41,472 bases of DNA from an archaeon (GTDB lineage: Archaea > Nanobdellota > Nanobdellia > SCGC-AAA011-G17 > PNOQ01). The stretch is taken from positions 70,284 through 111,755 of the forward strand of contig JABHIB010000008.1 of NCBI GenBank assembly GCA_018671245.1, in the 5' to 3' direction. How positions within the stretch are numbered: position 1 is the stretch's first letter; every line of letters starts with the position of its first letter. The notes below the pieces were generated by a model. The model saw only the letters and a program-made list of their open reading frames with translations. It did no database searches and was not told the DNA's origin. The position numbers and the translations under genes were made by a program. Of the stretch, positions 7,988 to 41,472 are shown piece after piece.

Positions 7988-8007
7988 CATGAATAAATTG
8001 ATTCAAT

Positions 8008-9471: not shown

Positions 9472-9475
9472 AAAA

Positions 9476-9486: not shown

Positions 9487-9548
9487 TCTTATATTAAATC
9501 AGATAAGTTGAAACACTCAACGATATTCAAAGGGAGGAAAATAAAAAA

Positions 9549-9710
9549 ATGTTAGTTGTAAAATCTAAAGTAAAAGAATTTACTGGCGACCTAAACGTGG
9601 CTGGAGATTTCGCAGAAGCTCTTGATAAAGAATTAGAAACTATAATTACTAGAGCATGTGAAAGATGCAAAGCTAATGGTAGGAAAACAGTACAATCAAG
9701 AGATTTATAA
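9549..9710 (+). CDS. Minimal histone-fold protein (DUF1931-like)
   Basis: Only 53 residues, but the C-terminal ACERCKANGRKTVQSRDL and the upstream NVAGDFAEALDKELETII are the helix-loop pattern of the archaeal DUF1931/histone-fold family, normally 60-70 residues or fused in tandem. It probably dimerises and may bind DNA. Two Cys (ACERC) sit in the C-terminal helix. A separate promoter, ~40-base leader, GGGAGGA ribosome-binding site and T-rich terminator after the stop suggest abundant independent expression. Confidence 0.8.
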   Translation: MLVVKSKVKEFTGDLNVAGDFAEALDKELETIITRACERCKANGRKTVQSRDL

Positions 9711-9712
9711 TC

Positions 9713-9731
9713 TCTTATTTTCTTTTTTTTA
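9713..9731 (+). terminator. T-rich terminator after the histone-fold gene
   Basis: T-rich stretch just after the stop at 9710, ending in eight consecutive T. Confidence 0.5.
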
Positions 9732-9775
9732 TTAACCACAAATTATTTTAATCATATAACAAATACTATATTTCT

Positions 9776-11691: not shown

Positions 11692-12076
11692 CACAATAAT
11701 AGAGATAGTAGGAATGCCAAAAGAACACGTAGTGGATACAATGCAAAAAGTAATTGACCTTATAGAAAAAGATGAGGAAATAAAATTAGAAAGTAAAGAT
11801 ACTGCTGAGCCAGAACTAATTAAAGATCTTTGGTCTACATTCACAGAATTCGAACTAGAGTTTGAAACATTCAAAAAATTAACAGGATTTTGCTTTGACT
11901 TTATGCCATCTTCAGTAGAAATAATATCTCCAGAAAAACCTGAATTAAATTCAAAAGATATTGAAGATTTATTGAATGATGTACTTGCTAAGACTCATCA
12001 ATACGATATGGCATTAAAAAGAATGATACTTGAAAAACGAGCAAAAGATAGACAAGAAAATTCTAAGACGGCTTAA
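11672..12076 (+). CDS. Conserved-looking cytoplasmic protein of unknown function
   Basis: 134 residues, acidic, no signal peptide. The N-terminal alternating beta-helix pattern (INTIIEIVGMPKEHVVDTMQ) resembles a ferredoxin/ACT-like fold, followed by a hydrophobic segment FCFDFMPSSVEII and a basic helical C terminus. No family name is recognised. It overlaps the lamin-tail gene by 20 bases at its start and the opposite-strand gene by 14 bases at its end. Confidence 0.75.
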   Translation: MEKIKINTIIEIVGMPKEHVVDTMQKVIDLIEKDEEIKLESKDTAEPELIKDLWSTFTEFELEFETFKKLTGFCFDFMPSSVEIISPEKPELNSKDIEDLLNDVLAKTHQYDMALKRMILEKRAKDRQENSKTA

Positions 12077-13388
12077 GAAAGGGATATCCTTGATTAGGTC
12101 TATTTTTTACTTTTTTATAAAGAAAATAACCAAGTATAATAAGAATAATCACTATCACTACTATAGACACTATACCCTTAATTGATTTTACCTCTGGTTC
12201 AACATAACAAGAACCACTATCAACATTACACACAAAACCAGAAGGGCAATCTGAGTCACTTGAACATAATTCTACCACAGATTCTGCAATACAATCTCCA
12301 TCAGTCAAATTACAATAATATCCTATATTGCAGTCATCATCACTACTACATCCACTGAGATTATTAGAGATTAATCCTTCAATCTCAATATATACAGGAA
12401 AATAATCAAAATCAGAACCACTATCTAAAGTTATATTCCCATAATAATAGCCAGGTAATGAATCTAAATTTTTATTAATATTAATATATACTTTACTAGT
12501 CTCACCAGCACTAACCTGATCTAAAATATTACTTTCTAAATTAAGAACTTCTTCTAAATTACCAGTTAAACCGAGATTAATTTCTGCGACCGAATAATCA
12601 TAAAAATTACCAACTTCTAAAAACCCTTCCTTACTCTCATTAGATGAAATACTTATATTAAAGTTATTTACAGCAGAAACAAATGAAATCAGATTACTTT
12701 CTAGACTAACATTAGAAGTTTGTAACTCTCCTGCCCACACAAGAATAGAATAAGATTTATCACCATAAGATATATCTAAAAATTGAGTTCCAGTTCTATC
12801 AAATATTAAATTATCAACATATACATCGAATATTTCTGAGTTTCCTGAATTGATATATAAATTACTGCTAGTAAAATCTATAGAATTTGGATCACTACTC
12901 TCTAAAAAAACATCTACAGCCTCAGAACCACTATTTACAACAAAAAAGTTAAACACTTCGCTAGTTGAAAATGAATCTAGAATGACAACCCCTGGAGAGA
13001 TAGAAAGAGTTTGATTGGATGGAACAATTGAAAAATCACTAGTTTGATTTGTTTGTACTATGATATTATTTTCTAAATAAGATATATCATCTACAAGCAA
13101 AGAATAATTTCCCACAACTAAATCATTATTAAGATTAAAATAAATATAATAGTGTCCGATATCAAGTTCAAAAACAAATGGAGATATATCTACAATTTCC
13201 CCCACAGGATTAATTAATTCAAAATTACGATAAGTTAGATATTCTAACAATTCTTCAGAATATTCAATCTCTGCTTGAAAAGTTTCACCAGAACTATATT
13301 CGGACCTTTCAATATTGATAGATAGAGGATCTGCACTGACTACTGAACAAACCACTAAAAACATAAAAACATAAAATGTAATTTTCAT
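12063..13388 (-). CDS. Membrane-anchored surface protein with Cys-rich repeats
   Basis: 441 residues: signal peptide (ITFYVFMFLVVCSVVSA), about 300 residues of beta-rich, Ig-like ectodomain with many N-x-S/T sites, then two copies of a Cys module (CSSDDDCNIGYYCNLTDGDC and CSSDSDCPSGFVCNVDSGSC), one transmembrane helix (IVVIVIILIILGYFLY) and a short basic cytoplasmic tail. It starts one base after the stop of the 13390 gene, which has the same Cys module, so the two form an operon and probably one surface assembly. Function not known. Confidence 0.82.
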   Translation of the reverse strand: MKITFYVFMFLVVCSVVSADPLSINIERSEYSSGETFQAEIEYSEELLEYLTYRNFELINPVGEIVDISPFVFELDIGHYYIYFNLNNDLVVGNYSLLVDDISYLENNIIVQTNQTSDFSIVPSNQTLSISPGVVILDSFSTSEVFNFFVVNSGSEAVDVFLESSDPNSIDFTSSNLYINSGNSEIFDVYVDNLIFDRTGTQFLDISYGDKSYSILVWAGELQTSNVSLESNLISFVSAVNNFNISISSNESKEGFLEVGNFYDYSVAEINLGLTGNLEEVLNLESNILDQVSAGETSKVYININKNLDSLPGYYYGNITLDSGSDFDYFPVYIEIEGLISNNLSGCSSDDDCNIGYYCNLTDGDCIAESVVELCSSDSDCPSGFVCNVDSGSCYVEPEVKSIKGIVSIVVIVIILIILGYFLYKKVKNRPNQGYPFLKPS

Positions 13389-15191: not shown

Positions 15192-15815
15192 ATGGCAAAT
15201 TTAATTAAGAAAGGATACCAAGAAATGAATATGTTACCAAAATACTTAAAAAAATCAATTAAAGAAATGACTTACTTAGCAAAGGGAAGTAGAGGAATAA
15301 TCTATACCGGGATTTACAAAAATAAGAAAGTTGCAATAAAAACAAAAAGTCCTGAATCTGAAGCAATTGGTAGATTAAAAAACGAATCAGAATTTCTTAA
15401 ATTATTAAATAAACATAATATTGGTCCAACCCTATTAAACTCTGGAAAAGAATATATAATCTATGAATTTGTTGAAGGAGAGTTTTTGCCAGAGTTTTTA
15501 ATAAAAGAAAAAGATAAAAAGAAAAAGAAAAAAATATTAATAAATATTCTAAAACAAGCTAGAAAATTAGATAAATTAAGAATAAATAAATTAGAATTTA
15601 CAAGGCCACTAAAGCATGTATTAATTAAATATCCCAAAGTTAAAATCTTAGATTTTGAAAGATGTTATTATACAGAGAGTCCAAAAAATGTCACACAGTT
15701 CTGCCAATTTTTGATTAATAGAAAATTGATGAAAAAAGAAATCAAAATTCTTCAACAATACAAAGAAAATCAAACAGAAAAAAACTTTAAAGAAATAATA
15801 AAAAAAATAAACTAA
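15192..15815 (+). CDS. Atypical protein kinase-like protein (COG2112-like)
   Basis: 207 residues, half-size kinase fold: glycine-rich turn (LAKGSRGIIYTGIY), ATP-binding Lys50 in KKVAIK, helix C Glu65 and hinge (IIYEFVEGEFLP). The catalytic loop reads E-F-T-R-P-L-K-H-V instead of an HxD-containing loop, and the DFG motif is DFE (D154). This fits the archaeal predicted Ser/Thr kinase group COG2112, but the missing catalytic Asp leaves activity in doubt. It could bind nucleotide without phosphotransfer. ATG 15225 is an alternative start. Its stop overlaps the convergent Cas4-like gene (CTAA). Confidence 0.7.
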   Translation: MANLIKKGYQEMNMLPKYLKKSIKEMTYLAKGSRGIIYTGIYKNKKVAIKTKSPESEAIGRLKNESEFLKLLNKHNIGPTLLNSGKEYIIYEFVEGEFLPEFLIKEKDKKKKKKILINILKQARKLDKLRINKLEFTRPLKHVLIKYPKVKILDFERCYYTESPKNVTQFCQFLINRKLMKKEIKILQQYKENQTEKNFKEIIKKIN

Positions 15816-16627
15816 GAACCTGTCAAACTATAACATTTGTCTCTAAAACTGCAGGAAGAACATTTATTCTTATTAGAAACAATTGGAGGCAATTTTCCAT
15901 TCAATATTCTGTTGACATTCTGAACAGTTTTAATAACATTCTCTCTAACAAAAGGATTCATTGAAATCTTTCTCCTTTCATCATGATCAATATAATGGAC
16001 ATATCCTTCTTTAATATTTTTATGCATTTCTTCAACTAATAAAGACATATAGGATTCAAGTTGTATCCTATCTCCTGGCCAGACTCCTTCTTTTGGCATT
16101 CTACCAGATTTTAATTCAATAGGAGTATATTCACCATTATGTATCTCGATTCTATCTATAGCACCCTTAAGATCTAAAGCATAAGAACTCAAAGTAACTT
16201 CAGTTAAAATTTTCGGAGATAATCTACTCCACAAACTCTCACCATAAACTTTCTCTCTAACCATACACCCATAAACATTTGCAGCTCGATCTCTTGCCTC
16301 ACGTAAAAACATTGGCCACATTTTATGGAACATCCCTGTAGAATCAACTCCCAGTTCAATTAATTCATCCTTCATAGTTTCAAGGGTTTCAAAAAAAATC
16401 TTTGAATACTCTTTTCTAAAAACCATAATAATCTCTTCTAGTGGCATAAAATTAGAAATTCCACTAACAATCTCTTTATCTAGAGAATTAACTTTATCAA
16501 ATATATCATGTTTTAACCTTCCCCAGATAATTGCCTCTTTAGGAATTGGAGAAATTTTTAAAACATATTGCAAATACAATTTTCTTTTACAATACAAATA
16601 ACTAGAAAGCATATTTACTGATATCAT
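15812..16627 (-). CDS. Solitary Cas4/Dna2-like PD-(D/E)xK nuclease with iron-sulfur cysteines
   Basis: 271 residues. The Cas4/RecB-type core is visible: GRLKH with H40, GAIDRI with D158, PIELKSG with E171-x-K173, and a downstream QLESYM motif with Q189. Four cysteines likely hold a 4Fe-4S cluster: C13 (YLYCKRK) plus C256, C259 and C265. Such proteins are 5'-3' exonucleases in repair or CRISPR adaptation. No cas gene or repeat array is nearby, so a DNA-repair role is likelier. Leaderless start supported by ttataaaaat at 16651-16660. Confidence 0.85.
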   Translation of the reverse strand: MISVNMLSSYLYCKRKLYLQYVLKISPIPKEAIIWGRLKHDIFDKVNSLDKEIVSGISNFMPLEEIIMVFRKEYSKIFFETLETMKDELIELGVDSTGMFHKMWPMFLREARDRAANVYGCMVREKVYGESLWSRLSPKILTEVTLSSYALDLKGAIDRIEIHNGEYTPIELKSGRMPKEGVWPGDRIQLESYMSLLVEEMHKNIKEGYVHYIDHDERRKISMNPFVRENVIKTVQNVNRILNGKLPPIVSNKNKCSSCSFRDKCYSLTGS

Positions 16628-28216: not shown

Positions 28217-29338
28217 CTATACTATTCTTATTTTAAGTGTTTCTATTGTGAATGAATTGTCCGGAACAATTTTAATCAAATTGCTTCCAACAAACACCAT
28301 TGAAGTTATATCCTTAGTAAATGATTTAGAACTCCTTTCGAGATTAAACTCCTCACCATTAATAATCATATTTGCACTCGAACCAGATTCATCAAAAACC
28401 ATATCAAGATAAACAAGATTATTCTCTAAAGCATTTATATTAAATGAATATTCAGGGTAACTAATTTCATTAAATTCACTATTTACCCTTATATCACTGA
28501 AAACATAATCACCATTATCAATAATAAATTTTATTTCATTAACTCCACTTTTTATGATATTAACATCTAAATCAATAATTCTATTAAGATTTTCGCAAGA
28601 TAAAGTTTCAGAAAGAATAGAATCACCATTCAAATAAATTTTAAGTAAATTATTTCCAGAATAAGTATTACAATACATAGAATAAGATAGACTAGCTTTT
28701 TTGATATTGTTTATTTCAAACGATGGGATAATGAAACTATCAATTCCAATGGCATAAATATCTTCATATCCAGTTTTTATCGAAATATCAATCAGACCAT
28801 AATAACTAGTTGACCAAAAATCAGGAGAGGTAACATAAAATTTTAACTCATTATTATCTTCCACATAATCTACTGGTAATTTTAACACCACTATGTTCTC
28901 TTCCACAAACTCAGAAAATACTTCATGACCATTTAATTCTATATTTAATTCCCCAGTTTTCTCATAAATCCCAAAAGACAGAACTAAACTTTCCAAATTT
29001 TCTAAACTATCTACATTAAAAGAGAAAGATTGATCTTTACTATTGAATAAATTCCTTTTAATCTGAGAATTCTCAATTATTGTTCTAATTTCCGGATCAT
29101 ATCTAAAAAATAAATTCATCGGTTCTAAACCATATACTACATTAGTTTCAGAAGAAGGATAGACTAATCCTGGAGATTCAGACAATATGACCTTTCCAAG
29201 ATCAGAAAAACAATCGTCAGAACATTCGAGGTCTAGAAGTCTACATTTATCACAAGGAGGTAAAATTAAAGCATAAATTATTACAAGAAATGATATTATC
29301 AAAATTAATCCAGAAATTGATGCTTTTTTATTATACAT
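28217..29338 (-). CDS. Pilin-like surface protein (KKA prepilin motif)
   Basis: 373 residues from ATG 29338. The N terminus MYNKKASISGLILIISFLVI is a class III prepilin-type signal with cleavage expected after K-K-A6; a Cys cluster (PPCDKCRLLDLECSDDC) follows the hydrophobic helix. The remainder is beta-rich with no recognised domain, perhaps two jelly-roll-like halves (GELNIELNGHEV and NNLLKIYLNGDSI repeat, then NMIINGEEF). The frame continues to 29461, but the TATA element at 29363-29375 fits only the 29338 start. It is transcribed away from the prepilin peptidase gene. Confidence 0.78.
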   Translation of the reverse strand: MYNKKASISGLILIISFLVIIYALILPPCDKCRLLDLECSDDCFSDLGKVILSESPGLVYPSSETNVVYGLEPMNLFFRYDPEIRTIIENSQIKRNLFNSKDQSFSFNVDSLENLESLVLSFGIYEKTGELNIELNGHEVFSEFVEENIVVLKLPVDYVEDNNELKFYVTSPDFWSTSYYGLIDISIKTGYEDIYAIGIDSFIIPSFEINNIKKASLSYSMYCNTYSGNNLLKIYLNGDSILSETLSCENLNRIIDLDVNIIKSGVNEIKFIIDNGDYVFSDIRVNSEFNEISYPEYSFNINALENNLVYLDMVFDESGSSANMIINGEEFNLERSSKSFTKDITSMVFVGSNLIKIVPDNSFTIETLKIRIV

Positions 29339-29362
29339 TTTATTTAAGACTATAGATTGAAA

Positions 29363-29375
29363 ATAATATAAAAGG
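29363..29375 (-). promoter_or_regulatory. TATA box fixing the 29338 start
   Basis: On the minus strand ccttttatattat, centred about 29 bases before ATG 29338, predicting a leaderless message. Confidence 0.5.
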
Positions 29376-29419
29376 TTTTCTGTTAAACAAATAATCAGAT
29401 AAATGCCAGTTCCAAAAAG

Positions 29420-29430
29420 ATTTATAAAAT
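29420..29430 (+). promoter_or_regulatory. TATA box of the prepilin peptidase gene
   Basis: atttataaaat centred 28 bases before ATG 29453; leaderless. Confidence 0.55.
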
Positions 29431-29452
29431 AATAAAACAAATTAAAAGGCAG

Positions 29453-30337
29453 ATGATACAATTAATAATAATAATAATCTTACTGATTTGGCTAATTAGT
29501 GCTACATATACAGATATAAAAACAAAAGAAGTTCCAGATTGGTTAAGTTTTAGTTTGATAATAATTGCACTAGGTAGCTATACTATCTTATCATTAATAG
29601 AAAATGATTTTGGAATACTACTAACAAGCTTGAAAGGATTTGGAATATTTTTTATTTTAGGAAACTTTCTATATTACACAAAACAGTGGGGTGGAGGAGA
29701 TGCAAAAATATTAATGGGAATAGGAGCAACCTTACCTGAATACCCTTCACAATTACTAAATTACTTTAATCCAAATCTAGATGCACCTTTTCTAGTAACA
29801 ATATTTATTAATATCATAATAGTGGGTGCAGTTTATAGTATAATAATGGGAACTAGATTAATCTTAAAAAATAGAAAGGAATTCTCAAAGAAATTTTCAA
29901 AGAAAATAAAAAATAAGAAGATTAGAGGAATAAGAGATTCGATAGGATTATTATCTATAGTCTTTTTGATAGTCTACTTAACAAGCGAATCATATTCAAT
30001 AAAGGCAATATCCATTTTATTAGCCATAATGCCTTTAGTTTTTTTCTATATGTGGTTATCAATTTCAATAGTAGAAAAAATAACTATGTATAAAAAAATT
30101 AAAGTTAGTCAATTGAGAGAGGGTGACTGGATAACTAAAAAAATAAAAATTAACAATAAATTAATCTATACTCCTAACATAAATGGAGTTACAAACAAAG
30201 AAATTAAAAAATTAAGAAAATACGAGAATGAAATTAAAAAATTAACAATAAAAGATGGAATACCTTTCCTACCAGCAATACTCATAGCAGTAGTATCCAG
30301 TATAATTTTCGGAAATCTATTGGCTTATTTAATTTAA
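29453..30337 (+). CDS. Type IV prepilin / preflagellin peptidase (A24 family, FlaK/PibD-like)
   Basis: 294 residues, integral membrane aspartic peptidase. Catalytic D21 in TYTDIKTKEVPDW and D83 in the GGGD motif of WGGGDAKILMGIGA. At least seven hydrophobic segments, two of them forming a C-terminal pair around a cytoplasmic loop (VSQLREGDWITKK). It removes class III signal peptides from pilin-like proteins; seven candidates are encoded in this window. It is not inside the pilus operon at 33678-41472 but 3 kb away. Confidence 0.93.
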   Translation: MIQLIIIIILLIWLISATYTDIKTKEVPDWLSFSLIIIALGSYTILSLIENDFGILLTSLKGFGIFFILGNFLYYTKQWGGGDAKILMGIGATLPEYPSQLLNYFNPNLDAPFLVTIFINIIIVGAVYSIIMGTRLILKNRKEFSKKFSKKIKNKKIRGIRDSIGLLSIVFLIVYLTSESYSIKAISILLAIMPLVFFYMWLSISIVEKITMYKKIKVSQLREGDWITKKIKINNKLIYTPNINGVTNKEIKKLRKYENEIKKLTIKDGIPFLPAILIAVVSSIIFGNLLAYLI

Positions 30338-30868: not shown

Positions 30869-31888
30869 TTATTCATCTCTCAGCCCTTTATCTGTAACAA
30901 AAAACATACTTTCACCATCAGGCAAACAAGGACTATCTACTAACTTTGCAACTCTTGATCCCTTTTTACCCCTTCTAAGATAAACTCTTGTTGTTGAAGC
31001 ATGTGCAACAATATTTCCTCCAATCGCAACAGTAGGATCCCCAAAAAAAGTATCAGGTTTTGACATAACTTGATTAGTTATATATACTGCAATATTATTA
31101 TTCTTTGCCAATTTGAGCAAAACATGCATATGTTTATTCAACTTTTGTTGACGATCAGCTAATGTTCCCCTTCCAATAAATTCACTTCTAAAATGGCTCA
31201 TTAATGAATCAACAATAACAAGTCTGACATTAAGACCATCTTTTTTTATCAAATCCTCTACTTTTTCAGCCAATAGCATCTGATGATCACTATTAAATGC
31301 CCTTACAGCTCTAAGACTATTTAATGAAGTATCCACATCTAAATCATTTAATTCTGCAATCTGTTTAACTCTTTCTGGCCTCAGAGTACCTTCTGTATCA
31401 ATCCAAACAACTACTGGATCTTTTTCATTCTCTATACCTTGTACAGAACAAACTAATTGATGTGCCAAAGCAGTTTTTCCAGAACCATAAGCACCATAAC
31501 ACTCAGTAATTGAACCAGTTTCAATTCCCCCACCGAGTAGTTCATTGAAATTTTCACTTCCCGTACTTATTCTCTGAACAGTGTCTCTTTTTTTTAATAA
31601 TTCAATACCAGATTCAAATCCTATATCTAAATTTTTACGTGCAACTTGGATTATTCTTTTTGCAACATTATCCCCGATAGCTGCACCTTCCATCAATTCA
31701 GAAGGACTTGCAACAGCAATACTCATAAGATCATCATATCCTACCTCTTTCAATTTTTCTGCAGTTGCACTTCCAACACCTGGTAGGTCCTCTATAGTCA
31801 TCTCAACAGATTTATCTGTTTTAACTGGTTCTTTTACTTTAACTTTTTCAACAACTTCCGAACTATCCTCATGTATAACTTCTCTCAT
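30869..31888 (-). CDS. radA: DNA repair and recombination protein RadA
   Basis: 339 residues, archaeal RecA/Rad51 recombinase. N-terminal helix-hairpin-helix (LPGVGSATAEKLKEVG), then Walker A GAYGSGKT at 132-139, Walker B LVIVDSLMSHFR, the ITNQVMSKPD loop and GGNIVAHASTTRVYLRRG. It forms filaments on single-stranded DNA. The ATG overlaps the TGA of the preceding small gene (ATGA), and GGGTGGTGATGAG inside that gene can serve as its ribosome-binding site. Confidence 0.98.
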   Translation of the reverse strand: MREVIHEDSSEVVEKVKVKEPVKTDKSVEMTIEDLPGVGSATAEKLKEVGYDDLMSIAVASPSELMEGAAIGDNVAKRIIQVARKNLDIGFESGIELLKKRDTVQRISTGSENFNELLGGGIETGSITECYGAYGSGKTALAHQLVCSVQGIENEKDPVVVWIDTEGTLRPERVKQIAELNDLDVDTSLNSLRAVRAFNSDHQMLLAEKVEDLIKKDGLNVRLVIVDSLMSHFRSEFIGRGTLADRQQKLNKHMHVLLKLAKNNNIAVYITNQVMSKPDTFFGDPTVAIGGNIVAHASTTRVYLRRGKKGSRVAKLVDSPCLPDGESMFFVTDKGLRDE

Positions 31889-32240: not shown

Positions 32241-32696
32241 TCAGATCAATAAAATAGTTATCAAAAAAAGCAAAACAAATATTATGATTCTTTCCATAAA
32301 TCCTCCAACCCGGATAATTCCACGAATTCTAGTACTTAACAAAGGATGAAATAATTTAACTCCTTCACTTGTTAAACAATCCGCAAATAAATGGGTCAGG
32401 TAACCTAACAAAATAGCAATACCTATAACTTTCTGTCCAAACCAGGAAAATAAAAAAAATAAAAAAAATGCAGGATAAATTGTATGTAGGAATCCTCTGT
32501 GTCCAAAAAACAATTTAATAATCCACGAAAATGGTCTCGTCCTCTTACCTAACCATCCTCTAGGAATATCTAAATCTGGAAAAAGAGTTGCTATACATAA
32601 GACACATACAAATAATAATTTATTTTCAATATTAAAAACCTGAAAAACTGATAAAGAAACAAGAACTCCAAAGAGAACATGCGTTTTATACAGCAT
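32241..32696 (-). CDS. YdjM/DUF457-family membrane-bound metal-dependent hydrolase
   Basis: 151 residues with four hydrophobic segments. Conserved polar motifs lie in the membrane: TH6 near the N terminus, LFPDLD, GHRGFLHT, and GYLTHLFADCLTSEGVKLFHPL, the set that defines YdjM-like hydrolases. Substrate unknown. Last gene of the unit; it overlaps the RPA-like gene by 11 bases. Confidence 0.9.
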   Translation of the reverse strand: MLYKTHVLFGVLVSLSVFQVFNIENKLLFVCVLCIATLFPDLDIPRGWLGKRTRPFSWIIKLFFGHRGFLHTIYPAFFLFFLFSWFGQKVIGIAILLGYLTHLFADCLTSEGVKLFHPLLSTRIRGIIRVGGFMERIIIFVLLFLITILLI

Positions 32697-33684
32697 CTTC
32701 CATACTCTTCATAATAGAAGAAGGGTCAGCTTCTTCTATTGAGTTAATCATAAGCTCCAACCTATCAAAATTTGAATTCTTGGAGGCTTTTCCTTTTATT
32801 ACAAATTGTTTGCCAAGATTACCTTTCAAAAGTACATCGAGTTCTTCTGGCTTATATCCACCTAATTCTTCACCACTTCTTCCTATGAACTTTTCTGCAA
32901 CATCTGCAAAACAAACTGCACGAATATTTGAAGTACCATCATCAAAAAAGAAATTAACTACTGGAAATTTCTTAGATGAGACATTTCCATGAGTATTACA
33001 AACAAAATCTGTTCCTTGAACCATAACTTTTCTACCACATTTTTCACAGGCATTATAAAATCTAGGTTCGAACATCTGAACAACAGTACCTTGAACTTCA
33101 GCACGATCACCCTCTTTCAATTCAACTATATTCATTTTTGAAAAACCTAATCTACTAACTTCTGCCTTTACTTCTCCAATAGATTCCCCTTCAGGATTAA
33201 TTGCAACTTGACCCCGTGAACCTAGATGGATCTCAATAAAACCATTATTGTCTTTAGAATATGCATCGTGAATTTTAAGAATATCTCCAGCCTTAACTTT
33301 TTCATTAAGCTCAGAAATAGTTTTATCATCCCACACAACAAATCTTAATGTGCCAGTTTCATCACCAACAGTACAAACTCCAAGCCTACCTTGCCTTTTT
33401 GCAGTTTTAAACTCTCGCACTTCAAAATCAGAAACCATTTTTCCCAAAATATTTAATCCATTAACACCTTTCGGAACATCTGAGATCTTGAAATCTTTTG
33501 GCGCATTATTTTCAAATAATTTAATACCATACTGATTAGCAATAATATGTGCCGCACCTTCTTTACTTATTAAATCTGAAAGTTCGTCTATTTTAACCTT
33601 TATCTTTGACTCAACTTCTTCTTTTGTAACGCCTTTGTCTGAAACTATTTTTTCTACTATTTCATCATAATTTAATCTTAACAT
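32686..33684 (-). CDS. RPA-like single-stranded DNA-binding protein
   Basis: 332 residues. N-terminal helical segment (EIVEKIVSDKGVTKEEVESKI, GAAHIIANQYGI), two OB folds (LGVCTVGDETGTLRFVVWDD and EVQGTVVQMFEPRFYNACEKCG), and a zinc finger C-x2-C ... C-x2-H (NACEKCGRK, VCNTHG) before the second OB region (SNIRAVCFADVAEKF). Archaeal RPA coats single-stranded DNA in replication and repair with RadA. The ATG lies within the last codons of the pilin-like gene upstream (7-base overlap), so RPA is tied to the pilus unit. Confidence 0.92.
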   Translation of the reverse strand: MLRLNYDEIVEKIVSDKGVTKEEVESKIKVKIDELSDLISKEGAAHIIANQYGIKLFENNAPKDFKISDVPKGVNGLNILGKMVSDFEVREFKTAKRQGRLGVCTVGDETGTLRFVVWDDKTISELNEKVKAGDILKIHDAYSKDNNGFIEIHLGSRGQVAINPEGESIGEVKAEVSRLGFSKMNIVELKEGDRAEVQGTVVQMFEPRFYNACEKCGRKVMVQGTDFVCNTHGNVSSKKFPVVNFFFDDGTSNIRAVCFADVAEKFIGRSGEELGGYKPEELDVLLKGNLGKQFVIKGKASKNSNFDRLELMINSIEEADPSSIMKSMEDAV

Positions 33685-34466
33685 GGGAATATATCTCCTT
33701 GTAAGGGGTTGAACTCATCGAAGTTAACAGCTGCTTTAATTTTAACTTCTTTTTTCCCCTTTTCAGTATTTATTATCTGGGGAATTGATTCGAACATAAA
33801 AAGGTTACCATTACTTTCCCACCAAAAATCAGCATTTGATCCCCAACAGACTTCATTATTTCTGCATTCATCAACAATAAACTTTACTTCCTCAACAAAT
33901 TCAAGGAAACTATCAATATCATACTGTACAGAAAACTTGACATTCGGCCTAATTGAATATGTGCCAATATTAACACTATCATTTTTTAAGATAATAGAGT
34001 CAATACTATTTCTAGAAATACCAATAACTTCGAAAGAACTATCAAGATCAGTTATTTCATAATCATAATATGAGCTATCAGAATTCTTATGAATCTCAGA
34101 CCATAGGAATATCCCGAATTCAGATTTAAATGTGGAATAAGTAGGATAACATTCAGAATAATCTGCCCCATAATTTAAACCTCTTGCCCAGAGAGTGTAT
34201 CCTTCCTCAACTTTCAGAGAGTTATAAGAAAATCCTCCAGATTCAAGAAAGTTAGATAGATGATTTTTTCCAACATATTGCCTATCTAAATAAAACAATT
34301 TATTCTCACCAGTTTCATAAGATTCGATTAATGCTAACTGTGACTCTCCAAGAGATTTAATTAATACATTATCTTGAACTTCGGAAAATAAGAACAGAGC
34401 AACCCCTATACTTAGAATAGTGTATATAAATACATATAATGTAAATAATCCTTTTTTTCCTACCAC
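33678..34466 (-). CDS. Pilin-like protein of the pilus locus (KKG)
   Basis: 262 residues from GTG 34466. N terminus VGKKGLFTLYVFIYTILSIGV: K4-K5-G6 is a prepilin-peptidase motif followed by a hydrophobic helix. The ectodomain has Cys in SECYPTYS, DECRN, EVCWG and the final PC. No family named. It starts inside the last codons of the 34460 gene (7-base overlap), and its stop overlaps RPA. Confidence 0.8.
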   Translation of the reverse strand: MVGKKGLFTLYVFIYTILSIGVALFLFSEVQDNVLIKSLGESQLALIESYETGENKLFYLDRQYVGKNHLSNFLESGGFSYNSLKVEEGYTLWARGLNYGADYSECYPTYSTFKSEFGIFLWSEIHKNSDSSYYDYEITDLDSSFEVIGISRNSIDSIILKNDSVNIGTYSIRPNVKFSVQYDIDSFLEFVEEVKFIVDECRNNEVCWGSNADFWWESNGNLFMFESIPQIINTEKGKKEVKIKAAVNFDEFNPLQGDIFPC

Positions 34467-35041
34467 TCAGAACACCCCTCTTCATCAAAATAAATAGAAT
34501 CACTAGCATAGAGGACAACATAAAAATCTCCATAAATCATTTGATAGTTGGATCTCCAATTTAAACATAAATTCAAATTATTTTCCTTACAATAATTATT
34601 TGATGAAAAAACTTTATTTGAATCGGTAGGACTCTTGTCTAAACTATCTGTTAAAAATATAGAATATCCTCTCCTATAATCGTTATCTCTAATAATTTTA
34701 CAATACTCCATATTATTTAGAATCTCATTAGTCGAACTACTAATAATTTCTTTTAATCTATCAGAATTATCGACAAGATACACTTCAATTAAACTTGATA
34801 TTGTAGTTTTGTCTTCAAATCCATCCCCATCTATATCTATAGAAATAGGAGTTCTCAGATAATTCAATAACTGTAAGTTATCTTCAGAATTTCCAAGCTC
34901 TCCTTCTAACCTTATCAATTCAGTTGTACTGCCGTCTTTAATGCTTGACATACCCATAATCATAGAAAAAGTAAGTAGAAGAACTCCTACAAAAAGTATA
35001 TTCACCAAACGAAGCATTAGAGTAGTTGCAGTCCTATTCAT
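34460..35041 (-). CDS. Pseudopilin-like protein with a DxDxDG loop
   Basis: 193 residues. N-terminal hydrophobic helix (LMLRLVNILFVGVLLLTFSM) without a KKG motif. Residues 69-77 read D-I-D-G-D-G-F-E-D, a calcium-loop-like pattern. Four Cys (EYCKI, NYCKE, NLCLN, EGCSE) could form two disulfides. Overlaps the preceding gene by 8 bases and the next by 7. Confidence 0.78.
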   Translation of the reverse strand: MNRTATTLMLRLVNILFVGVLLLTFSMIMGMSSIKDGSTTELIRLEGELGNSEDNLQLLNYLRTPISIDIDGDGFEDKTTISSLIEVYLVDNSDRLKEIISSSTNEILNNMEYCKIIRDNDYRRGYSIFLTDSLDKSPTDSNKVFSSNNYCKENNLNLCLNWRSNYQMIYGDFYVVLYASDSIYFDEEGCSEW

Positions 35042-35537
35042 TCCTTGCCACCGCCCTTATATTAAGATATCCTGAATAAAATTCAGAATTATTTTCATAT
35101 AACACATATAACTTTTTTGAAGAACAACTATATTTAGAAGTTTTAAGATCGCACAACAATCCTTGGACAAATATCTCAGAATTAATCTCAATATTATCTA
35201 AACTATTCATCTCAGAATCATATAACTCTACACCAAACCCTAATCCTCCAGAACCATAAGATAAACACTTAATAATTTTATTCTCATTAAAATTATCCAG
35301 ATCAACTATTCCAGGATAAGATCTAACTTCGTCAGAATAACTCAGACAATCTGGAGAATATAATAACCCATTAACTAAAAGGTGTGTGTCAAGCCCACTT
35401 AATTCTACACCCCTATCCATATAAAAAGTCGAAATAAATATTAGAACTCCAAATACAAAGAGAATAAGAAAAACATAGATTACAATATTAAGTTGTTCAT
35501 CTGTTAAGAATATAAACCCTTTTTTATTCCTCATCAT
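35034..35537 (-). CDS. Pilin-like protein of the pilus locus (KKGF)
   Basis: 167 residues. Two ATGs (35537, 35534) precede RNKKGFIFLTDEQLNIVIYVF; K5-K6-G7-F8 is a class III prepilin motif with a long hydrophobic helix after it. A GGAGGG site lies just upstream inside the preceding gene. Four Cys (PDCLSY, IKCLSY, LLCDL, YSCSS) are consistent with disulfides. Translation is coupled to both neighbours. Confidence 0.82.
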   Translation of the reverse strand: MMRNKKGFIFLTDEQLNIVIYVFLILFVFGVLIFISTFYMDRGVELSGLDTHLLVNGLLYSPDCLSYSDEVRSYPGIVDLDNFNENKIIKCLSYGSGGLGFGVELYDSEMNSLDNIEINSEIFVQGLLCDLKTSKYSCSSKKLYVLYENNSEFYSGYLNIRAVARNE

Positions 35538-35934
35538 ACCCTCCAGTTACTGATAAACTAGTAGAAGTTTTATTGAAAATTAAATAATCATAATCATTTT
35601 TACCAGAATAATCTACAAAAATATATTTATTATCTGCACACCGAGATTTTGAACCAGAAAGAATCGATGTATCTTTTAGATTTACTTCAATCAGACAACC
35701 ATCACCTATATCAATATTAAATCTATCTTCTCCTTGTTTAATATTATATTTAAAGGAAACTTCTCCCGGACTAACAAATAAAGTCTGTTCAACTAATGAA
35801 ATATCCTTTGCAAGATAAGATTGATCAAATGAAGTACCATCTGTAACCTTTGCCAAAACAAAAAAAAGCGTTAAAAATACAATAGTTGTAATTATAAGAT
35901 AACCTGGCCAAAGATATATTCTCTCCTCTTCCAT
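35524..35934 (-). CDS. Small anchored protein opening the second pilus transcription unit
   Basis: 136 residues: N-terminal hydrophobic helix (GYLIITTIVFLTLFFVLAK), acidic ectodomain with two Cys (DGCLIEV and SRCADN). No prepilin motif. A TATA element at 35955-35965 lies 27 bases upstream, so this is the first gene of a leaderless transcript that runs through RPA and the YdjM-like gene. Function unknown. Confidence 0.78.
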   Translation of the reverse strand: MEEERIYLWPGYLIITTIVFLTLFFVLAKVTDGTSFDQSYLAKDISLVEQTLFVSPGEVSFKYNIKQGEDRFNIDIGDGCLIEVNLKDTSILSGSKSRCADNKYIFVDYSGKNDYDYLIFNKTSTSLSVTGGYDEE

Positions 35935-35954
35935 ACAAAAAAATTAGATTTTCA

Positions 35955-35965
35955 AGTATATAAAG
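35955..35965 (-). promoter_or_regulatory. Internal promoter of the pilus locus
   Basis: Minus-strand ctttatatact centred 26 bases before ATG 35934; splits the locus into two transcription units. Confidence 0.5.
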
Positions 35966-35980
35966 ATTTTTGAAAAATTA

Positions 35981-36460
35981 TTAATTTGATCCTTTAATAA
36001 TCAAAGAAGTTCCTTGTTTCTCAAGATTAAGAAGTACACTTGTTTTTGTTTCTGCAAGAATTACCTCTGCACCATTTTCAATTTGAAAAGAGACAATATT
36101 ATCCAGAGAAGTATAAACAACTGGCGAAATACATGCACGAGGATCTAAACTTGATTTACAAACTACTAAACATGCAGCATTAAAACACTCCTCGGGCCTT
36201 TCATAAATAGTTCCAGATTGAGTACCTTTATCAAAACCAACAAGATAGTATCCATCAACTAAATAAAATATTGAGCTAGAATTTTGATTAATTTGATCCA
36301 TATCTTCAATTACTTCTTTAAGATTTTCTATAGATTGTTCAGTGAGATGCCAACTATCTGAGAAGAACATACTCCAAACCATAGAACCAACAGTAAATGC
36401 AAGAAACACTCCTCCAATTCCTATAACTAATCCGAAAATCAACTTAAAACTAACTTCCAT
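35981..36460 (-). CDS. Membrane-anchored protein, pilus locus
   Basis: 159 residues. N-terminal hydrophobic segment (LIFGLVIGIGGVFLAFTVGSMVW) then helical linker and beta-rich domain with Cys in EECFNAACLVVC and RACISP. No recognised family. Starts within the stop of the 36460 gene (TAATG). Last gene before the internal promoter. Confidence 0.78.
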   Translation of the reverse strand: MEVSFKLIFGLVIGIGGVFLAFTVGSMVWSMFFSDSWHLTEQSIENLKEVIEDMDQINQNSSSIFYLVDGYYLVGFDKGTQSGTIYERPEECFNAACLVVCKSSLDPRACISPVVYTSLDNIVSFQIENGAEVILAETKTSVLLNLEKQGTSLIIKGSN

Positions 36461-36630
36461 TATTTGATTACACCCGTAGCATTTATTTCTGTAAATTTCA
36501 AAATACTACCCATAAAATTTCCAAAAGCACTAGAAAACGATTTAAATTGATCTCCAAAAATAAAAAGAACTACTACTAGCACTATTATTGCAATTATAAA
36601 AATTACGATACTCTCTAATGCAAGTCTCAT
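36460..36630 (-). CDS. Tiny single-helix membrane protein, pilus locus
   Basis: 56 residues: MRLALESIVIFIIAIIVLVV, then FGDQFKSFSSAFGNF. The GGTGA site five bases before the ATG and the TAATG overlap with the next gene support translation. Shape resembles a minor pseudopilin. No family recognised. Confidence 0.75.
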   Translation of the reverse strand: MRLALESIVIFIIAIIVLVVVLFIFGDQFKSFSSAFGNFMGSILKFTEINATGVIK

Positions 36631-36661
36631 TTAGTTCACCATATAAAAATAAAAAAGGGCC

Positions 36662-37021
36662 TTAACAGCCTCCAGCATCACTAATCTTTTGACAGATTAT
36701 ACCAAGTTGGCTACACGTTTTTTCAATATCAGCACTTCCATCATTATCCGTATCTAATCCAAACTTCTTCTCACAATAATTAGTTTTATATTCCTCTACA
36801 GTTGGAAGACTTGTATAACTATTACAAAAACCTTCACACTCTAAAATTGCCTGAGTTTCATCAATAGGTTGAGAACCATATATCCCTTTAATTCTATCAA
36901 CTAACCCAGTCATACCACCTGTAAAGAATGCTGCAATAACCACCAAAACTAAAATTGCCAAAATCGCGATTATGATAGTATTCATAGAAAGCCCCTGACC
37001 TTTTTTATTACTTTTACTCAA
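36662..37021 (-). CDS. Pilin-like protein with calcium-like loop (KKG), TTG start
   Basis: 119 residues from TTG 37021, chosen because AAGGTGAT ends four bases before it; the alternative GTG 37030 would lie within that site. K6-K7-G8-QGLSMNTIIIAILAIL is a class III prepilin signal. The short ectodomain has six Cys (CEGFC, NYCEK, TCSQLGIICQ, GGC) and D-T-D-N-D-G-S-A-D (about residues 90-98), a calcium-loop-like motif. Candidate major pilin by size. Confidence 0.8.
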   Translation of the reverse strand: MSKSNKKGQGLSMNTIIIAILAILVLVVIAAFFTGGMTGLVDRIKGIYGSQPIDETQAILECEGFCNSYTSLPTVEEYKTNYCEKKFGLDTDNDGSADIEKTCSQLGIICQKISDAGGC

Positions 37022-37025
37022 ATTA

Positions 37026-37033
37026 ATCACCTT
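37026..37033 (-). promoter_or_regulatory. Ribosome-binding site deciding the TTG start
   Basis: AAGGTGAT, four bases before TTG 37021. Confidence 0.5.
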
Positions 37034-37053
37034 GATACAAATTATTCAATTTA

Positions 37054-37239
37054 CTATTTAAACTTTTTGGTTAATTCATCTTTTCCATTCTTTTCAAAAT
37101 ATTTTTTCAGAAGAGGAGAATAATGTAATAATTTAATTAAAATAGGAAATGCGAATGAATAATCATCAATTTTATCTTTGATTAATTCACTATTCAATTT
37201 AGTTTTTAATTTATCGTTATTTTTGAGTATTGAAACCAT
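37054..37239 (-). CDS. Small basic protein, pilus locus
   Basis: 61 residues, Lys-rich, no signal peptide; the predicted helices (YSFAFPILIKLLHYSPLLKKYFEK) are amphipathic. ATG 37239 follows the upstream stop by one base, which supports translation. Cytoplasmic; function unknown, and least secure of the locus. Confidence 0.55.
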   Translation of the reverse strand: MVSILKNNDKLKTKLNSELIKDKIDDYSFAFPILIKLLHYSPLLKKYFEKNGKDELTKKFK

Positions 37240-37240
37240 T

Positions 37241-38425
37241 TTAAATTATATGAGGATTATTACCCTCTTCCAAGATTTGTGAACTACTAACTCCTATTAA
37301 ATTTGCATTATTATTAAGAATATTCATTTTGTCAACATATTCAGAATACGAAATACTAAATTTATGATAATCATTTAACCAGATATTGAAAATTTCTTTA
37401 GTAGATTCGATATTGGAAAAACTATTTGTAGATCCAATTAAATAGAGATAACCAAAAGCTATAGATAATTCATTATTATTAACCAACACTGCTGCCAAAC
37501 TAGAATCATCAAAATCCACACCTCCATAACCATAGAGATTCATCAAACTTTTACCTTCGGAACTTTCTAATACAGAATATGCACTTTTAGATCCTTTTAT
37601 TTCCAACATACTTATCCCATTTCCCTTACCTTCTACATACACTTCAGAGTTGGAATTATATAGTATTTCCCTATTAATGAATTTGCCTCCAGTATAAGAC
37701 TCAATATAAATTATCCCTTCCATAACTTTTTCAGCATTGCTAACAAAATTAGAATTTAAAGATGCAAGAGAAATCAGAGAATTTAATGAACTAGAATCCA
37801 ATCCGCTATCATAACTATTTACTGCTTCAGAAAATGATCCGAATCTTTCATTTTTTTCAGAACACACCAAACTTAAATCACCTTTCTCTCTAGAAACTGC
37901 AATAGACATAACACAAATTTTATCATCACTTAATTTATAAAAAATTAAAGAAGGATCAAATCCACCTTCATAATTATTTAAAGTAAGACTATTAGAACCA
38001 TAAATTAAACTGATTTTATCACTTATCTCAACAAAAGAAGAATCTTTATCAATTAATGCACAAGGAACAAAATTTATTCTCTCTTCAGCTAAATCTATCC
38101 TAGAACTTTTAAGTGAAATTTTAGTAGATAATCCTTCTTGTTCTAATTCTATGAGATACTCTGAAGGAAATGAGAATTCTTCATCAATACAGACACATCC
38201 ACTATCTTCATCCATTAAACAATCGTGGACTTGAATAAGCATATCGCTAAAAATCTCTTTTGAATCTTTTTGATTTTTTATTTCTTCTTGACTTACAAAC
38301 ATATCCCAACCATATTGATGAGAAAGATCCAAAATAGCATTACTTCCCCACCAACCAACTACTCCAACTACAATAATCACAAAAAAAGCAGCCATAATGT
38401 TTTTAACAGATAAATCCATACCCAT
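37241..38425 (-). CDS. Large anchored protein, pilus locus
   Basis: 394 residues. N-terminal transmembrane helix (IMAAFFVIIVVGVVGWWG), then a long beta-rich region. Four early Cys (HDCLMD, SGCVCID, VPCALI) and two later ones (KICVMS, LVCSE). No recognised family; possibly a pilus-associated adhesin or tip protein. Its ATG overlaps the stop of the 38425-38580 gene (TAATG). Confidence 0.8.
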   Translation of the reverse strand: MGMDLSVKNIMAAFFVIIVVGVVGWWGSNAILDLSHQYGWDMFVSQEEIKNQKDSKEIFSDMLIQVHDCLMDEDSGCVCIDEEFSFPSEYLIELEQEGLSTKISLKSSRIDLAEERINFVPCALIDKDSSFVEISDKISLIYGSNSLTLNNYEGGFDPSLIFYKLSDDKICVMSIAVSREKGDLSLVCSEKNERFGSFSEAVNSYDSGLDSSSLNSLISLASLNSNFVSNAEKVMEGIIYIESYTGGKFINREILYNSNSEVYVEGKGNGISMLEIKGSKSAYSVLESSEGKSLMNLYGYGGVDFDDSSLAAVLVNNNELSIAFGYLYLIGSTNSFSNIESTKEIFNIWLNDYHKFSISYSEYVDKMNILNNNANLIGVSSSQILEEGNNPHII

Positions 38426-38580
38426 TAACTGCCACCATACCTAAAAATCATTTTAAAATCTTCAAAAATAGAAGATATATTTTCCTTATGTTCTAGAGTA
38501 ACTAAAACTAGTATAGTTAATAAAAGTATAGCTAACAGAAACTTTCCAATTTGCTCCCATGCCAATTCTCCCCGTTTCAT
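38425..38580 (-). CDS. Tiny pilin-like protein (KRGE)
   Basis: 51 residues: M-K-R-G-E-L-A-W-E-Q-I-G then a hydrophobic helix (KFLLAILLLTILVLV) and a short amphipathic tail. K2-R3-G4-E5 fits class III prepilin processing, with Glu at mature position 1. Overlaps the 38577 gene by four bases (ATGA) and the 38425 gene by one base. Confidence 0.78.
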   Translation of the reverse strand: MKRGELAWEQIGKFLLAILLLTILVLVTLEHKENISSIFEDFKMIFRYGGS

Positions 38581-39374
38581 TGATTACACGCACCTATAAC
38601 TTCTTCACCACTACCAAAATATAATCCACTAACAAATCCAGTTTTTGTACTGGTTTTAGTAAGTGCAGTTGAACCAACTCCTCCAATCACTGCGCCCCAT
38701 GCTCCTCCAACTTTTGCTCCAGTCCAGGCACCTCCCGCAAAAGTGGATACTAATCTACTAATATCGCTAAAACCTCCATCCCAAAATTCAAATCTTTTAT
38801 CTGCAAAAAACACAACATAAAAAGGTTCCGAAGTGGAATAATCTGTACTAAATTCTTGAGAATGTATTTTGTTAGAGTGATCATCATACATATACTCAAA
38901 AAAAGATTCGCCATTATGTAACTGTAAAGGTTCTGTGCCAAGGTAGTTAACCAAATCTTTAATTTCAGGAACATTTTCTTGAACTCTTTCACCAAAATCT
39001 ATTCTCGAACAAATAAAACAATAATTATCTCCATTGCCCCAATCATAATCGCTCAAAAAATCTTTTTCGCCTTCGGCAAACTGATACCAACAATCATATA
39101 ATTCTCCAGATATAACTTCCTTTATTTCAGATTCATCAGAAGAACTTAATTCAATCATATCTGTAGTACAAGATAGATCTTGAAGAGTAGTCTTACCCAT
39201 AATTTTAACTTGAGTTCTAAGAAGCACACTATCTCTACACGCTTCTCTTCCAACACCCTGTTCAGACCAAGGAGCAAGTTCAAAGAAAAACCAATAAAAG
39301 AAAATACCCATAACTAATAATAAAGCGAGTAGACCTACTACAGTCATAGCCATTTCGGCCCTTTTATCCACCAA
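38577..39374 (-). CDS. Pilin-like protein (KRAE), GTG/TTG start
   Basis: 265 residues. N terminus V-D-K-R-A-E-M-A-M followed by VVGLLALLLVMGIFFYWF; K4-R5-A6-E7 is a class III type motif with Ala. The ectodomain has seven Cys (EACRDS, LSCTTD, YDCWYQ, YCFICSR, GACNQ) and a late Gly/Ala-rich segment (AGGAWTGAKVGGAWGAVIGG). Starts at TTG 39374 or GTG 39371 behind AGGGGTGAG; it overlaps the end of the 37-residue gene by 11 bases. Confidence 0.8.
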   Translation of the reverse strand: MVDKRAEMAMTVVGLLALLLVMGIFFYWFFFELAPWSEQGVGREACRDSVLLRTQVKIMGKTTLQDLSCTTDMIELSSSDESEIKEVISGELYDCWYQFAEGEKDFLSDYDWGNGDNYCFICSRIDFGERVQENVPEIKDLVNYLGTEPLQLHNGESFFEYMYDDHSNKIHSQEFSTDYSTSEPFYVVFFADKRFEFWDGGFSDISRLVSTFAGGAWTGAKVGGAWGAVIGGVGSTALTKTSTKTGFVSGLYFGSGEEVIGACNQ

Positions 39375-39477
39375 AAACTCTCACCCCTTTAGTTATAGCC
39401 ATATATAATACGAACAGGGTAGCTAATACAAACAGCAATTTGAAAACATATTCCAAAAATTTACTTGAGTCACCCAT
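39364..39477 (-). CDS. Tiny single-helix membrane protein at the head of the pilus unit
   Basis: 37 residues: M-G-D-S-S-K-F-L-E-Y then hydrophobic helix (VFKLLFVLATLFVLYMAI) and basic end (TKGVRVFGG). A TATA element at 39500-39511 sits 28 bases before the ATG, making it the first gene of a leaderless unit. Its sequence overlaps the next gene by 11 bases. Small size lowers certainty, but promoter and coupling support it. Confidence 0.65.
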   Translation of the reverse strand: MGDSSKFLEYVFKLLFVLATLFVLYMAITKGVRVFGG

Positions 39478-39499
39478 TTTATTCTAAGATCATTTTCTA

Positions 39500-39511
39500 A
39501 ATTTATAAATC
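39500..39511 (-). promoter_or_regulatory. TATA box of the first pilin-like unit
   Basis: Minus-strand gatttataaat centred 28 bases before ATG 39477. Confidence 0.5.
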
Positions 39512-39514
39512 TTT

Positions 39515-41472
39515 TTAAAACTCTGGAAGGATAGAAGATGCCAAACCATTGAACAATAGTATTACAATCAGAGAGATTATCAAATAAAGTGCAGTACTTT
39601 TAATTAAATTCTGTCCAATCAAATATTGTTCATTTAGTTTATCCGATCCATTCTCTATTCCGCTAGATAATACAGTTAAAATATAAATTATTTGAATAAC
39701 ATAAATTCCCACAACTAATTGAAAAAAATAACCTGGAATTGTATCAGTTTTACTGAATAACTCAGATAAGGTAGCTGCTCCTGTTGGAAAACTTTCACTA
39801 CCTCCTGCTTGCATTTGTTCAGGATTCATATCTGAAAGTTTTGAAATAACACTAACCATCATACTAGAAATACCTACTACTATTCCTGCGATTATAGGTG
39901 TTAAAAATTTGATTTGACCCTTCATACTAGAAATTATATCTGCTAAAAGGTCCTTCAACCTTTCATTTATATGTTTAATTTTATTAACGTAATTTGATAT
40001 ACTGATCAGTGCCTGTGAGACTACTGCAGGGCCCTTTTTTGAACTTTCAACTAAAACTTCCATAGAACTCTCGATCAAAGGAGTCCTATAATTTAAAATT
40101 GCACCATTATTTTCATCAAAGATTGCTCCCTCTATTCCCTTGCCTCCACGTGTCAGATTTAAATGAATTCTTCCAAAAAAATCTCCAGTAGGAGTACCAA
40201 CCATATTCTCTGCAACATCTCTAAATGCAGATTCTGTAGGGATACCATCCCCTATTCTTGTACCTAATTGAAACAAACTTGTAGAGAATTCACTCTCCAA
40301 CTTTTTTATTTCCTTTCTAATCTCCATAGCACCTTTTGTTTTAGCACTATAATGCATACCCACTCCCAATGCAATACCTAGCGGGAAAAATAAACTCAAC
40401 AAAGTTGCACCTAAACCATAAGGTCCATAACACACGCCAGTACCATAACATTCAAAATCTAAAAACTTATCACCCAAAAATGCGACATCATAAGACGGAT
40501 TAATTAAATGTAATAAAAATGGAGATAAACTAATTAAAATAAATATTGCCATTAAGAAAAATCCAAATGAAGATACCTTTTTTTTGGCCTTCACATTAAT
40601 AATACTCTCTCCATAACCTGTAGGCCTTTTACTTAGAATATTTACCCCCATATTATAAACTAAAATTGGTAAGAATAAATTATATACAAATGCAAGATGC
40701 CACCACCTTACCATTCCACCCATAAAAGTTCCAACAAGTGGAAACATGACAAGGCCTAAAATCGGTAAAATTACTCCAAGCATATGCAACATAGTTATTG
40801 GATTCTTAAGTTCATGAGCATAATGTAACATTTTATCATAAGTTCCATCAAGAATAACTTTCAGACCCTTATCTAACAGTTCTACTCTCCTACCTTCATC
40901 AGGCTCATACAAACTACTCTCAACAAGATGAAAAGAATTTACAAACTCTAAATTTGTATCCCTCCACCTAATAAGATAATTTTCAAGAGAATCTTTCATA
41001 GTTGAAAACTTGCCAGTTTCAACATCCCAAAAAACCTTTCTCAGATCTAAAGAGAGAGGAGGAGAAATATGTTCGGCAGCAAAATTAAGTGCATTTTCAA
41101 GATTTGAAGTATGTCTCATATAGATAACAATATACAGAATACATAACACCATCTGATTGCTTGCCTGAAGTCTCCATTTATCTGCAAAACGATGAGGTAT
41201 ATTTGTCAAAAATTTCAAAGAGATTAATGCCAATAGAATAAATAAAAATGAAAGAAGTAATACTGAAGTATTATCAAAAACAAAAAATCCTATAACTCCT
41301 ATTAAAACTGCCACCAAAAGAAAAATACTCGCTATAAACATTGAAAAACTTGCCACACTTGTAGGAGTGACATTTAAATGTGCAAATTCTATACTTTTCT
41401 CTAATTTTTCTTGATCTTTTTTAGAAGGATTTACTTTTATAACACTCTCTGCAATAGCACACCATTTTTCAT
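39515..41472 (-). CDS. TadC/FlaJ-like pilus assembly platform protein, 5' end beyond window
   Basis: At least 651 residues in frame to the right edge; GTG 41356 is not the true start because the open frame continues upstream (ending N-V-T-P-T-S before it). Several hydrophobic segments (SIFLLVAVLIGVIGFFVF; GVILPILGLVMFPLVG; FLMAIFILISLSPFLL; ILTVLSSGIENG) and two duplicated cytoplasmic helical halves (LENALNFAAEH and RIGDGIPTESAFRDVAENM) fit the GspF/TadC/FlaJ platform. It works with a TadA/FlaI-type ATPase, likely the gene just upstream, to insert pilins. Confidence 0.9.
   Translation of the reverse strand, partial: EKWCAIAESVIKVNPSKKDQEKLEKSIEFAHLNVTPTSVASFSMFIASIFLLVAVLIGVIGFFVFDNTSVLLLSFLFILLALISLKFLTNIPHRFADKWRLQASNQMVLCILYIVIYMRHTSNLENALNFAAEHISPPLSLDLRKVFWDVETGKFSTMKDSLENYLIRWRDTNLEFVNSFHLVESSLYEPDEGRRVELLDKGLKVILDGTYDKMLHYAHELKNPITMLHMLGVILPILGLVMFPLVGTFMGGMVRWWHLAFVYNLFLPILVYNMGVNILSKRPTGYGESIINVKAKKKVSSFGFFLMAIFILISLSPFLLHLINPSYDVAFLGDKFLDFECYGTGVCYGPYGLGATLLSLFFPLGIALGVGMHYSAKTKGAMEIRKEIKKLESEFSTSLFQLGTRIGDGIPTESAFRDVAENMVGTPTGDFFGRIHLNLTRGGKGIEGAIFDENNGAILNYRTPLIESSMEVLVESSKKGPAVVSQALISISNYVNKIKHINERLKDLLADIISSMKGQIKFLTPIIAGIVVGISSMMVSVISKLSDMNPEQMQAGGSESFPTGAATLSELFSKTDTIPGYFFQLVVGIYVIQIIYILTVLSSGIENGSDKLNEQYLIGQNLIKSTALYLIISLIVILLFNGLASSILPEF

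Follow-up and report, generated by a model that had tools for sequence, protein, structure and literature searches.

A probable type IV pilus machine with eleven prepilin-like families in Woesearchaeota, possibly serving DNA uptake

The window analysed here, 41,472 nucleotides from a 615-kb archaeal genome (G000:C1:70284-111755), ends in a locus that is very probably a type IV pilus-type machine of Woesearchaeota and their phylum. Sequence comparison or structure modelling establishes its secretion ATPase, the fold of its platform protein, prepilin motifs at eleven positions, even cysteine numbers, a prepilin peptidase and a conserved gene order, and from these we infer prepilin processing and filament assembly. 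The most likely specific use of the pilus, about level with adhesion to a host, would be DNA uptake. The closest database records to the proteins of the locus are from Candidatus Woesearchaeota and related Nanoarchaeota metagenome-assembled genomes, headed by archaeon SI048_bin40 with 71% identity in the platform protein, and the source is a tiny archaeon that probably depends on a host. The genes of the machine, in order from the ATPase through the platform and the small open reading frames (ORFs) to the peptidase, are (aa, amino acids):

41643-43955, minus strand (extrapolated, beyond the window edge; L004:8027-10339): secretion ATPase, 770 aa, matching PF00437
39515-41638, minus strand (end extrapolated, past the window edge at 41472): platform protein resembling a TadC1+TadC2 fusion, 707 aa, identified with AlphaFold, Foldseek and hhalign
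39364-39477, minus strand: s37, 37 aa, single transmembrane helix; KKG or KRA at the equivalent position in other genomes
38577-39374, minus strand: s265, 265 aa, prepilin by motif and AlphaFold model; KRA then EMAM, conserved cysteines
38425-38580, minus strand: s51, 51 aa, small prepilin; KRG then EL, motif in 8/8 seed genomes
37241-38425, minus strand: s394, 394 aa, prepilin-like, own motif lost; about 200 aa with KKG in several relatives
37054-37239, minus strand: ORF of 61 aa, no membrane helix, restricted to its own genus
36662-37030, minus strand: s122, 122 aa, prepilin; KKG then QGLSMN, six cysteines, motif in 8/8 seed genomes
36460-36630, minus strand: s56, 56 aa, small and prepilin-like by seed-genome comparison, own motif lost
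35981-36460, minus strand: s159, 159 aa, prepilin-like by seed-genome comparison, own motif lost
35524-35934, minus strand: s136, 136 aa, prepilin-like by seed-genome comparison, own motif lost
35034-35537, minus strand: s167, 167 aa, prepilin by motif; KKG then FIFL
34460-35041, minus strand: s193, 193 aa, prepilin-like by seed-genome comparison, own motif degenerate
33678-34466, minus strand: s262, 262 aa, prepilin by motif; KKG then LFTL, last gene of the cassette
29453-30337, plus strand: prepilin peptidase of the A24 family (PF01478, 3.7e-15; NCBIfam FlaK, 6e-18, under its cut-off)

All four hallmarks of the type IV filament superfamily are present: a PilB/GspE/TadA-type assembly ATPase, a GspF/PilC/TadC-type platform (which Pfam alone fails to detect), proteins with a class III signal and an N-terminal helix, and a prepilin peptidase, here about 3.3 kb beyond the cassette. 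An earlier note on this DNA, made from its letters, had advised looking for a secretion ATPase just right of position 41472, and one is encoded there, 4 bp upstream of the platform gene. It matches PF00437 over the cut-off (E 1.4e-14), and its best match in the PDB (E 3.4e-38) is 2OAP (GspE2 of Archaeoglobus); CpaF and FlaI are matched as well. Among 20 genomes the ATPase is 49-75% identical, and the Walker A residues G478, G483 and K484 and the G558-E559-R561 residues are invariant.

The note had also read the neighbouring protein as a TadC/FlaJ-like platform, and structure bears this out where Pfam does not. The platform itself has no Pfam match, with weak T2SSF matches in four of 20 homologues, and a sequence search against the PDB found no match for it. 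Its AlphaFold model (predicted local distance difference test score, pLDDT, 80) includes a GspF/PilC cytoplasmic domain, which Foldseek aligns with the cytoplasmic domains of EpsF, OutF and PilC at a probability of 0.99-1.00 and a target-normalised template-modelling score of 0.71-0.78, with root-mean-square deviations of 2.6-2.8 Å over about 110-120 columns; the E-values are poor because the alignment is confined to the cytoplasmic domain. In hhalign the N-terminal half aligns to TadC1 and the C-terminal half to TadC2 of a canonical pilus in the same genome (E 2e-5 to 2e-4; 52-79%). Judged by these models and profiles, the platform is a relative of TadC/FlaJ. Matches to it occur in 59/61 relatives and in 146/147 sampled genomes of the phylum, one of them weak (in G023, which has no orthologous ATPase), leaving 145/147 strong. 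At G023:C27:56548-60244 this weak match comes after a divergent ATPase in a 1008-aa open frame; the two may belong to a replacement or to a degenerated system.

Downstream of the platform, at 33678-39477 of the minus strand, come twelve small ORFs. All had been taken for membrane proteins; eleven do have a single N-terminal hydrophobic helix, and the 61-aa ORF has none. They are as tightly packed as had been described, with eight of 12 junctions at 1 bp or less and a full range of -14 to +46 bp. ORFs were called with a simple longest-ORF method and helices from hydropathy, so some starts may be misplaced. The four KKG or KRG motifs and the single KRA that had been read from the sequence are those of s51, s122, s167 and s262, and of s265. 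No named pilin family of Pfam matches any of the twelve, as had also been said, and the 122-aa and 265-aa proteins have no match in NCBIfam either. A scan for bacterial-type promoters did no better than on shuffled sequences.

Comparison with relatives makes the cassette more uniform than the window suggests. The order s37-s265-s51-s394-s122-s56-s159-s136-s167-s193-s262 is kept across related Woesearchaeota, the pattern that the note had proposed to look for, and [KR][KR][GA] precedes the helix at every one of the eleven positions, in no fewer than two of the eight seed genomes each time. All eleven families are thus most simply prepilins, and the copies that have no motif in this genome would most simply be derived. 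Eleven prepilin-like families in one operon are indeed a larger and more varied set than that of a simple adhesion pilus, as the note had said. Because iterative hidden Markov models of the smallest pilins drifted onto the common hydrophobic helix, orthology was taken from syntenic seeds; the tiny families still cross-match. Across 17 genomes with the cassette, 111/150 proteins with a single N-terminal transmembrane helix after the platform carry the class III motif, against 7/122 such control ORFs (Fisher p 5e-33). Cysteine numbers in the ectodomains are even in 101 of 103 proteins and odd in two, compared with 185 even and 257 odd in 442 soluble ORFs; evenness is expected of oxidised extracellular heads.

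Within the cassette s122, with an even cysteine number in all 37 homologues, is the best candidate for the major pilin, and the other members may be minor, tip or base subunits. The one ectodomain that was modelled, that of s265, has the usual pilin architecture (pLDDT 75): a helix of 55 residues at the N-terminus, then a sheet of four strands. No match to an unrelated soluble fold appeared. With the ATPase present as well, the note's reading passes both of the refutation checks that it had set itself. A Foldseek search of this model against the PDB found no match and speaks neither for nor against a named pilin fold. Cassette proteins diverge fast, with about 20% mean column identity, whereas the ATPase and platform are conserved.

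Most of 41 loci have, upstream of the ATPase, three adjacent paralogues with four or five membrane helices each and no trusted family match (L004:11481-13169, minus strand); of 30 loci with at least one of them, 24 have all three. Also upstream is a pair of coiled-coil-like genes that overlap each other and diverge from the ATPase (L004:10403-11477, plus strand), kept in about 31/41 loci. The paralogues and the coiled-coil-like proteins are candidate base components. Beside the A24 peptidase, a 414-aa protein with NKKA and then a hydrophobic helix (window 28217-29461, minus strand) is possibly a further prepilin or an anchored surface protein.

Pilus islands of DPANN archaea have been known since 2019, when a survey of archaeal dark matter noted islands with unrecognisable pilins (PMC6393860). 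Those islands share with our locus the ATPase, a TadC protein and small, signal-bearing, diverse predicted pilins unlike other archaeal ones; the survey's text describes them in some genomes and states no function (PMC6393860). Relative to that text, what we add is the near-universal platform, the fixed order of eleven families, a motif for each position, a link to RPA and the OB-fold and TctA-like neighbours. The genome has one more type IV pilus locus, of canonical kind (L001 and L154; G000:C10, ~6705-12900), with a FlaI-related ATPase, a pair of prepilins, another KKG protein and TadC split over two genes. The two loci thus share a type IV pilus ATPase, TadC proteins and prepilins, but their ATPases are 28% identical over 314 aligned columns, and the two TadC genes recognised by Pfam in one correspond to a single fused 707-aa protein missed by Pfam in the other. 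A third ATPase match (L003) is, from its sequence, presumably a PIN-domain ATPase and not a pilus motor.

The cassette is followed by genes for handling DNA, and its last gene overlaps the first of them, since the RPA start overlaps the s262 stop by 7 bp:

32686-33684, minus strand: Replication protein A-like single-stranded DNA-binding protein (PF08646, 2e-8; NCBIfam replication factor A, 3e-49, under its cut-off)
30869-31888, minus strand: RadA recombinase, three genes downstream of RPA (Rad51, PF08423, 1.5e-77)

In distant genomes, found through a search for RPA, the cassette is often apart from the platform yet still upstream of RPA. Of the 16 distant loci scored, 10 have a run of at least three proteins with a class III motif and a single transmembrane helix within the 8 kb upstream of RPA, and three more such runs can be made out by eye; of 186 control windows from genomes of the same class, 181 have no motif protein and five have one. 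This lasting linkage of pilins to RPA suggests DNA uptake.

The same contig carries, some 10-13 kb from the ATPase gene, genes for a membrane OB-fold protein and a TctA-like transporter (L194; C1:124149-124496 and 125024-126229). The former has a transmembrane helix and an OB fold (PF01336, 6.5e-11), and the latter matches PF01970 (9e-52). Transformation of Methanococcus maripaludis requires its pilus, an OB-fold protein with one transmembrane helix and a TctA-like transporter, and a TctA homologue is also required in Methanoculleus thermophilus (PMC10133366). The Methanococcus-type set of OB-fold protein and transporter is matched here at the family level only. The type IV-like (Epd) pilus of M. 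maripaludis is similarly complex, with several minor pilins, but has another locus layout and a DUF2341 tip adhesin not seen here. TctA occurs in 19/21 relatives and 50/60 genomes of the phylum, single-copy in nearly all matching genomes; of 19 genomes, most have the OB gene in its vicinity, and in about 11 the two genes overlap or abut. Where platform and TctA share a contig (13 genomes), the distance between them is below random (Fisher p 9e-4, kinship ignored), a test that is weak by itself because these genomes share ancestry and many replication genes lie in the interval. In one genome the gene for a probably secreted thermonuclease precedes TctA by 57 bp, and thermonuclease was found in 11 of the 21 genomes searched. 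A 403-aa, probably secreted protein with a HEAGHAFGD metalloprotease-like motif is encoded at L194:1214-2425 (minus strand), and in several relatives the stretch that separates the OB/TctA pair from the pilus core encodes a protein of similar size at a similar position.

These parts suggest how the machine might work. One cytoplasmic ATPase would drive one platform, in which the two TadC proteins that ordinary archaeal pili have seem to be fused. The A24 peptidase would cleave prepilins after K/R-K/R-G/A, and the cleaved pilins would polymerise into a filament, or a short pseudofilament, with their disulfide-bonded heads outside. The pilus may capture DNA and retract, the captured DNA may cross the membrane through the nearby OB-fold/TctA-like pair, and RPA and RadA may bind what is imported, for use as nucleotides or in recombination. 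In its full form, this proposal makes the phylum-wide pilus, with its eleven pilins and fused platform, a DNA-uptake machine in which an OB-fold/TctA-like channel would replace ComEC and RPA would be co-transcribed with the pilins; we give it a probability of about 0.35. In bacteria of the candidate phyla radiation, tiny cells likewise keep a type IV pilus, together with ComEC, in a probable DNA-scavenging set (PMC6744442); TctA/OB would substitute for ComEC in the present system. A limited literature search returned no paper that proposes competence in DPANN archaea.

Two observations weigh against the machine as such: the filament is predicted from genes, none having been seen, and in this genome six of the 11 membrane proteins have no clear cleavage motif. 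Others weigh against DNA uptake. Every cassette ectodomain of the window that was scored is acidic, so no obvious DNA-binding pilin is among them, and a test of ectodomain charge for such a pilin was negative. Of the 60 phylum genomes, about 17% have no TctA, and G023, which is 97% complete, has the OB/TctA pair without an orthologous pilus. PolD, Hef-like and other replication genes, named by reading their sequences, lie in the same region, so the proximity of OB/TctA may be housekeeping synteny. A search of this genome for thermonuclease found none. ComEC (PF03772) is absent from all 21 genomes, with bacterial controls positive, and ComEC-type competence is rejected on that ground; naturally competent archaea likewise have no ComEC (PMC10133366). 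Given the acidic ectodomains, the gaps in TctA and G023, we put DNA uptake in general at about 0.35-0.4.

Host adhesion is a contender of much the same standing, and it and DNA uptake are not mutually exclusive. A pilus for adhesion or host contact would bear minor pilins as a host-recognising tip, and the linkage to RPA, RadA and TctA would be inherited gene order. Known DPANN archaea are mostly ectosymbionts, with pili-like connections reported, and a 2018 single-cell study connected host interaction with a TadC homologue from Nanoarchaeota; a FlaJ/TadC gene of Nanoarchaeota is rich in amino-acid-changing polymorphisms and has been proposed to act in host attachment. The fast divergence of the cassette beside a conserved ATPase and platform, and the acidic ectodomains, fit adhesion as well, but it leaves unexplained both the OB/TctA pair and the pilin-RPA link that persists when the cassette separates from the platform. 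We consider it improbable that the locus is a secretion machine, in which a short pseudopilus of many pseudopilins would push folded proteins through the envelope as in type II secretion. Many distinct pilins and the GspF-like platform domain would suit such a machine, but no dedicated substrates were identified beside the cassette and these archaea are not expected to have a secretin or an outer membrane. In the literature, FlaI, FlaJ and FlaK annotations in Woesearchaeota have been taken to indicate an archaellum or flagellum, and the ATPase and peptidase families are indeed related. We nevertheless reject an archaellum as hardly credible, because the FlaD/E family (PF04659, a FlaC/D/E component) is found in 0/21 genomes, although the same search detects it in Methanocaldococcus and Haloferax, and the ATPase scores 121 bits against the FlaI equivalog, far under its 550-bit cut-off.

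DNA uptake by the pilus, if confirmed, would bear on how DPANN archaea with genomes of 0.6-1 Mb obtain nucleotides and exchange DNA, and on the identity of the archaeal DNA-import channel. The near-universal platform and the candidate OB/TctA channel genes provide a defined gene set for both questions, and the function proposed here is a testable hypothesis. Because Pfam misses the platform and the pilins, automatic annotation would overlook the system or label it an archaellum.

Two further genes of the window lie apart from the locus. A lone protein of 173 aa, which carries the class III prepilin motif KRG, is encoded at 2192-2713 (plus strand), distant from the cassette, and a lone Cas4-like PD-(D/E)XK nuclease at 15812-16627 (minus strand).

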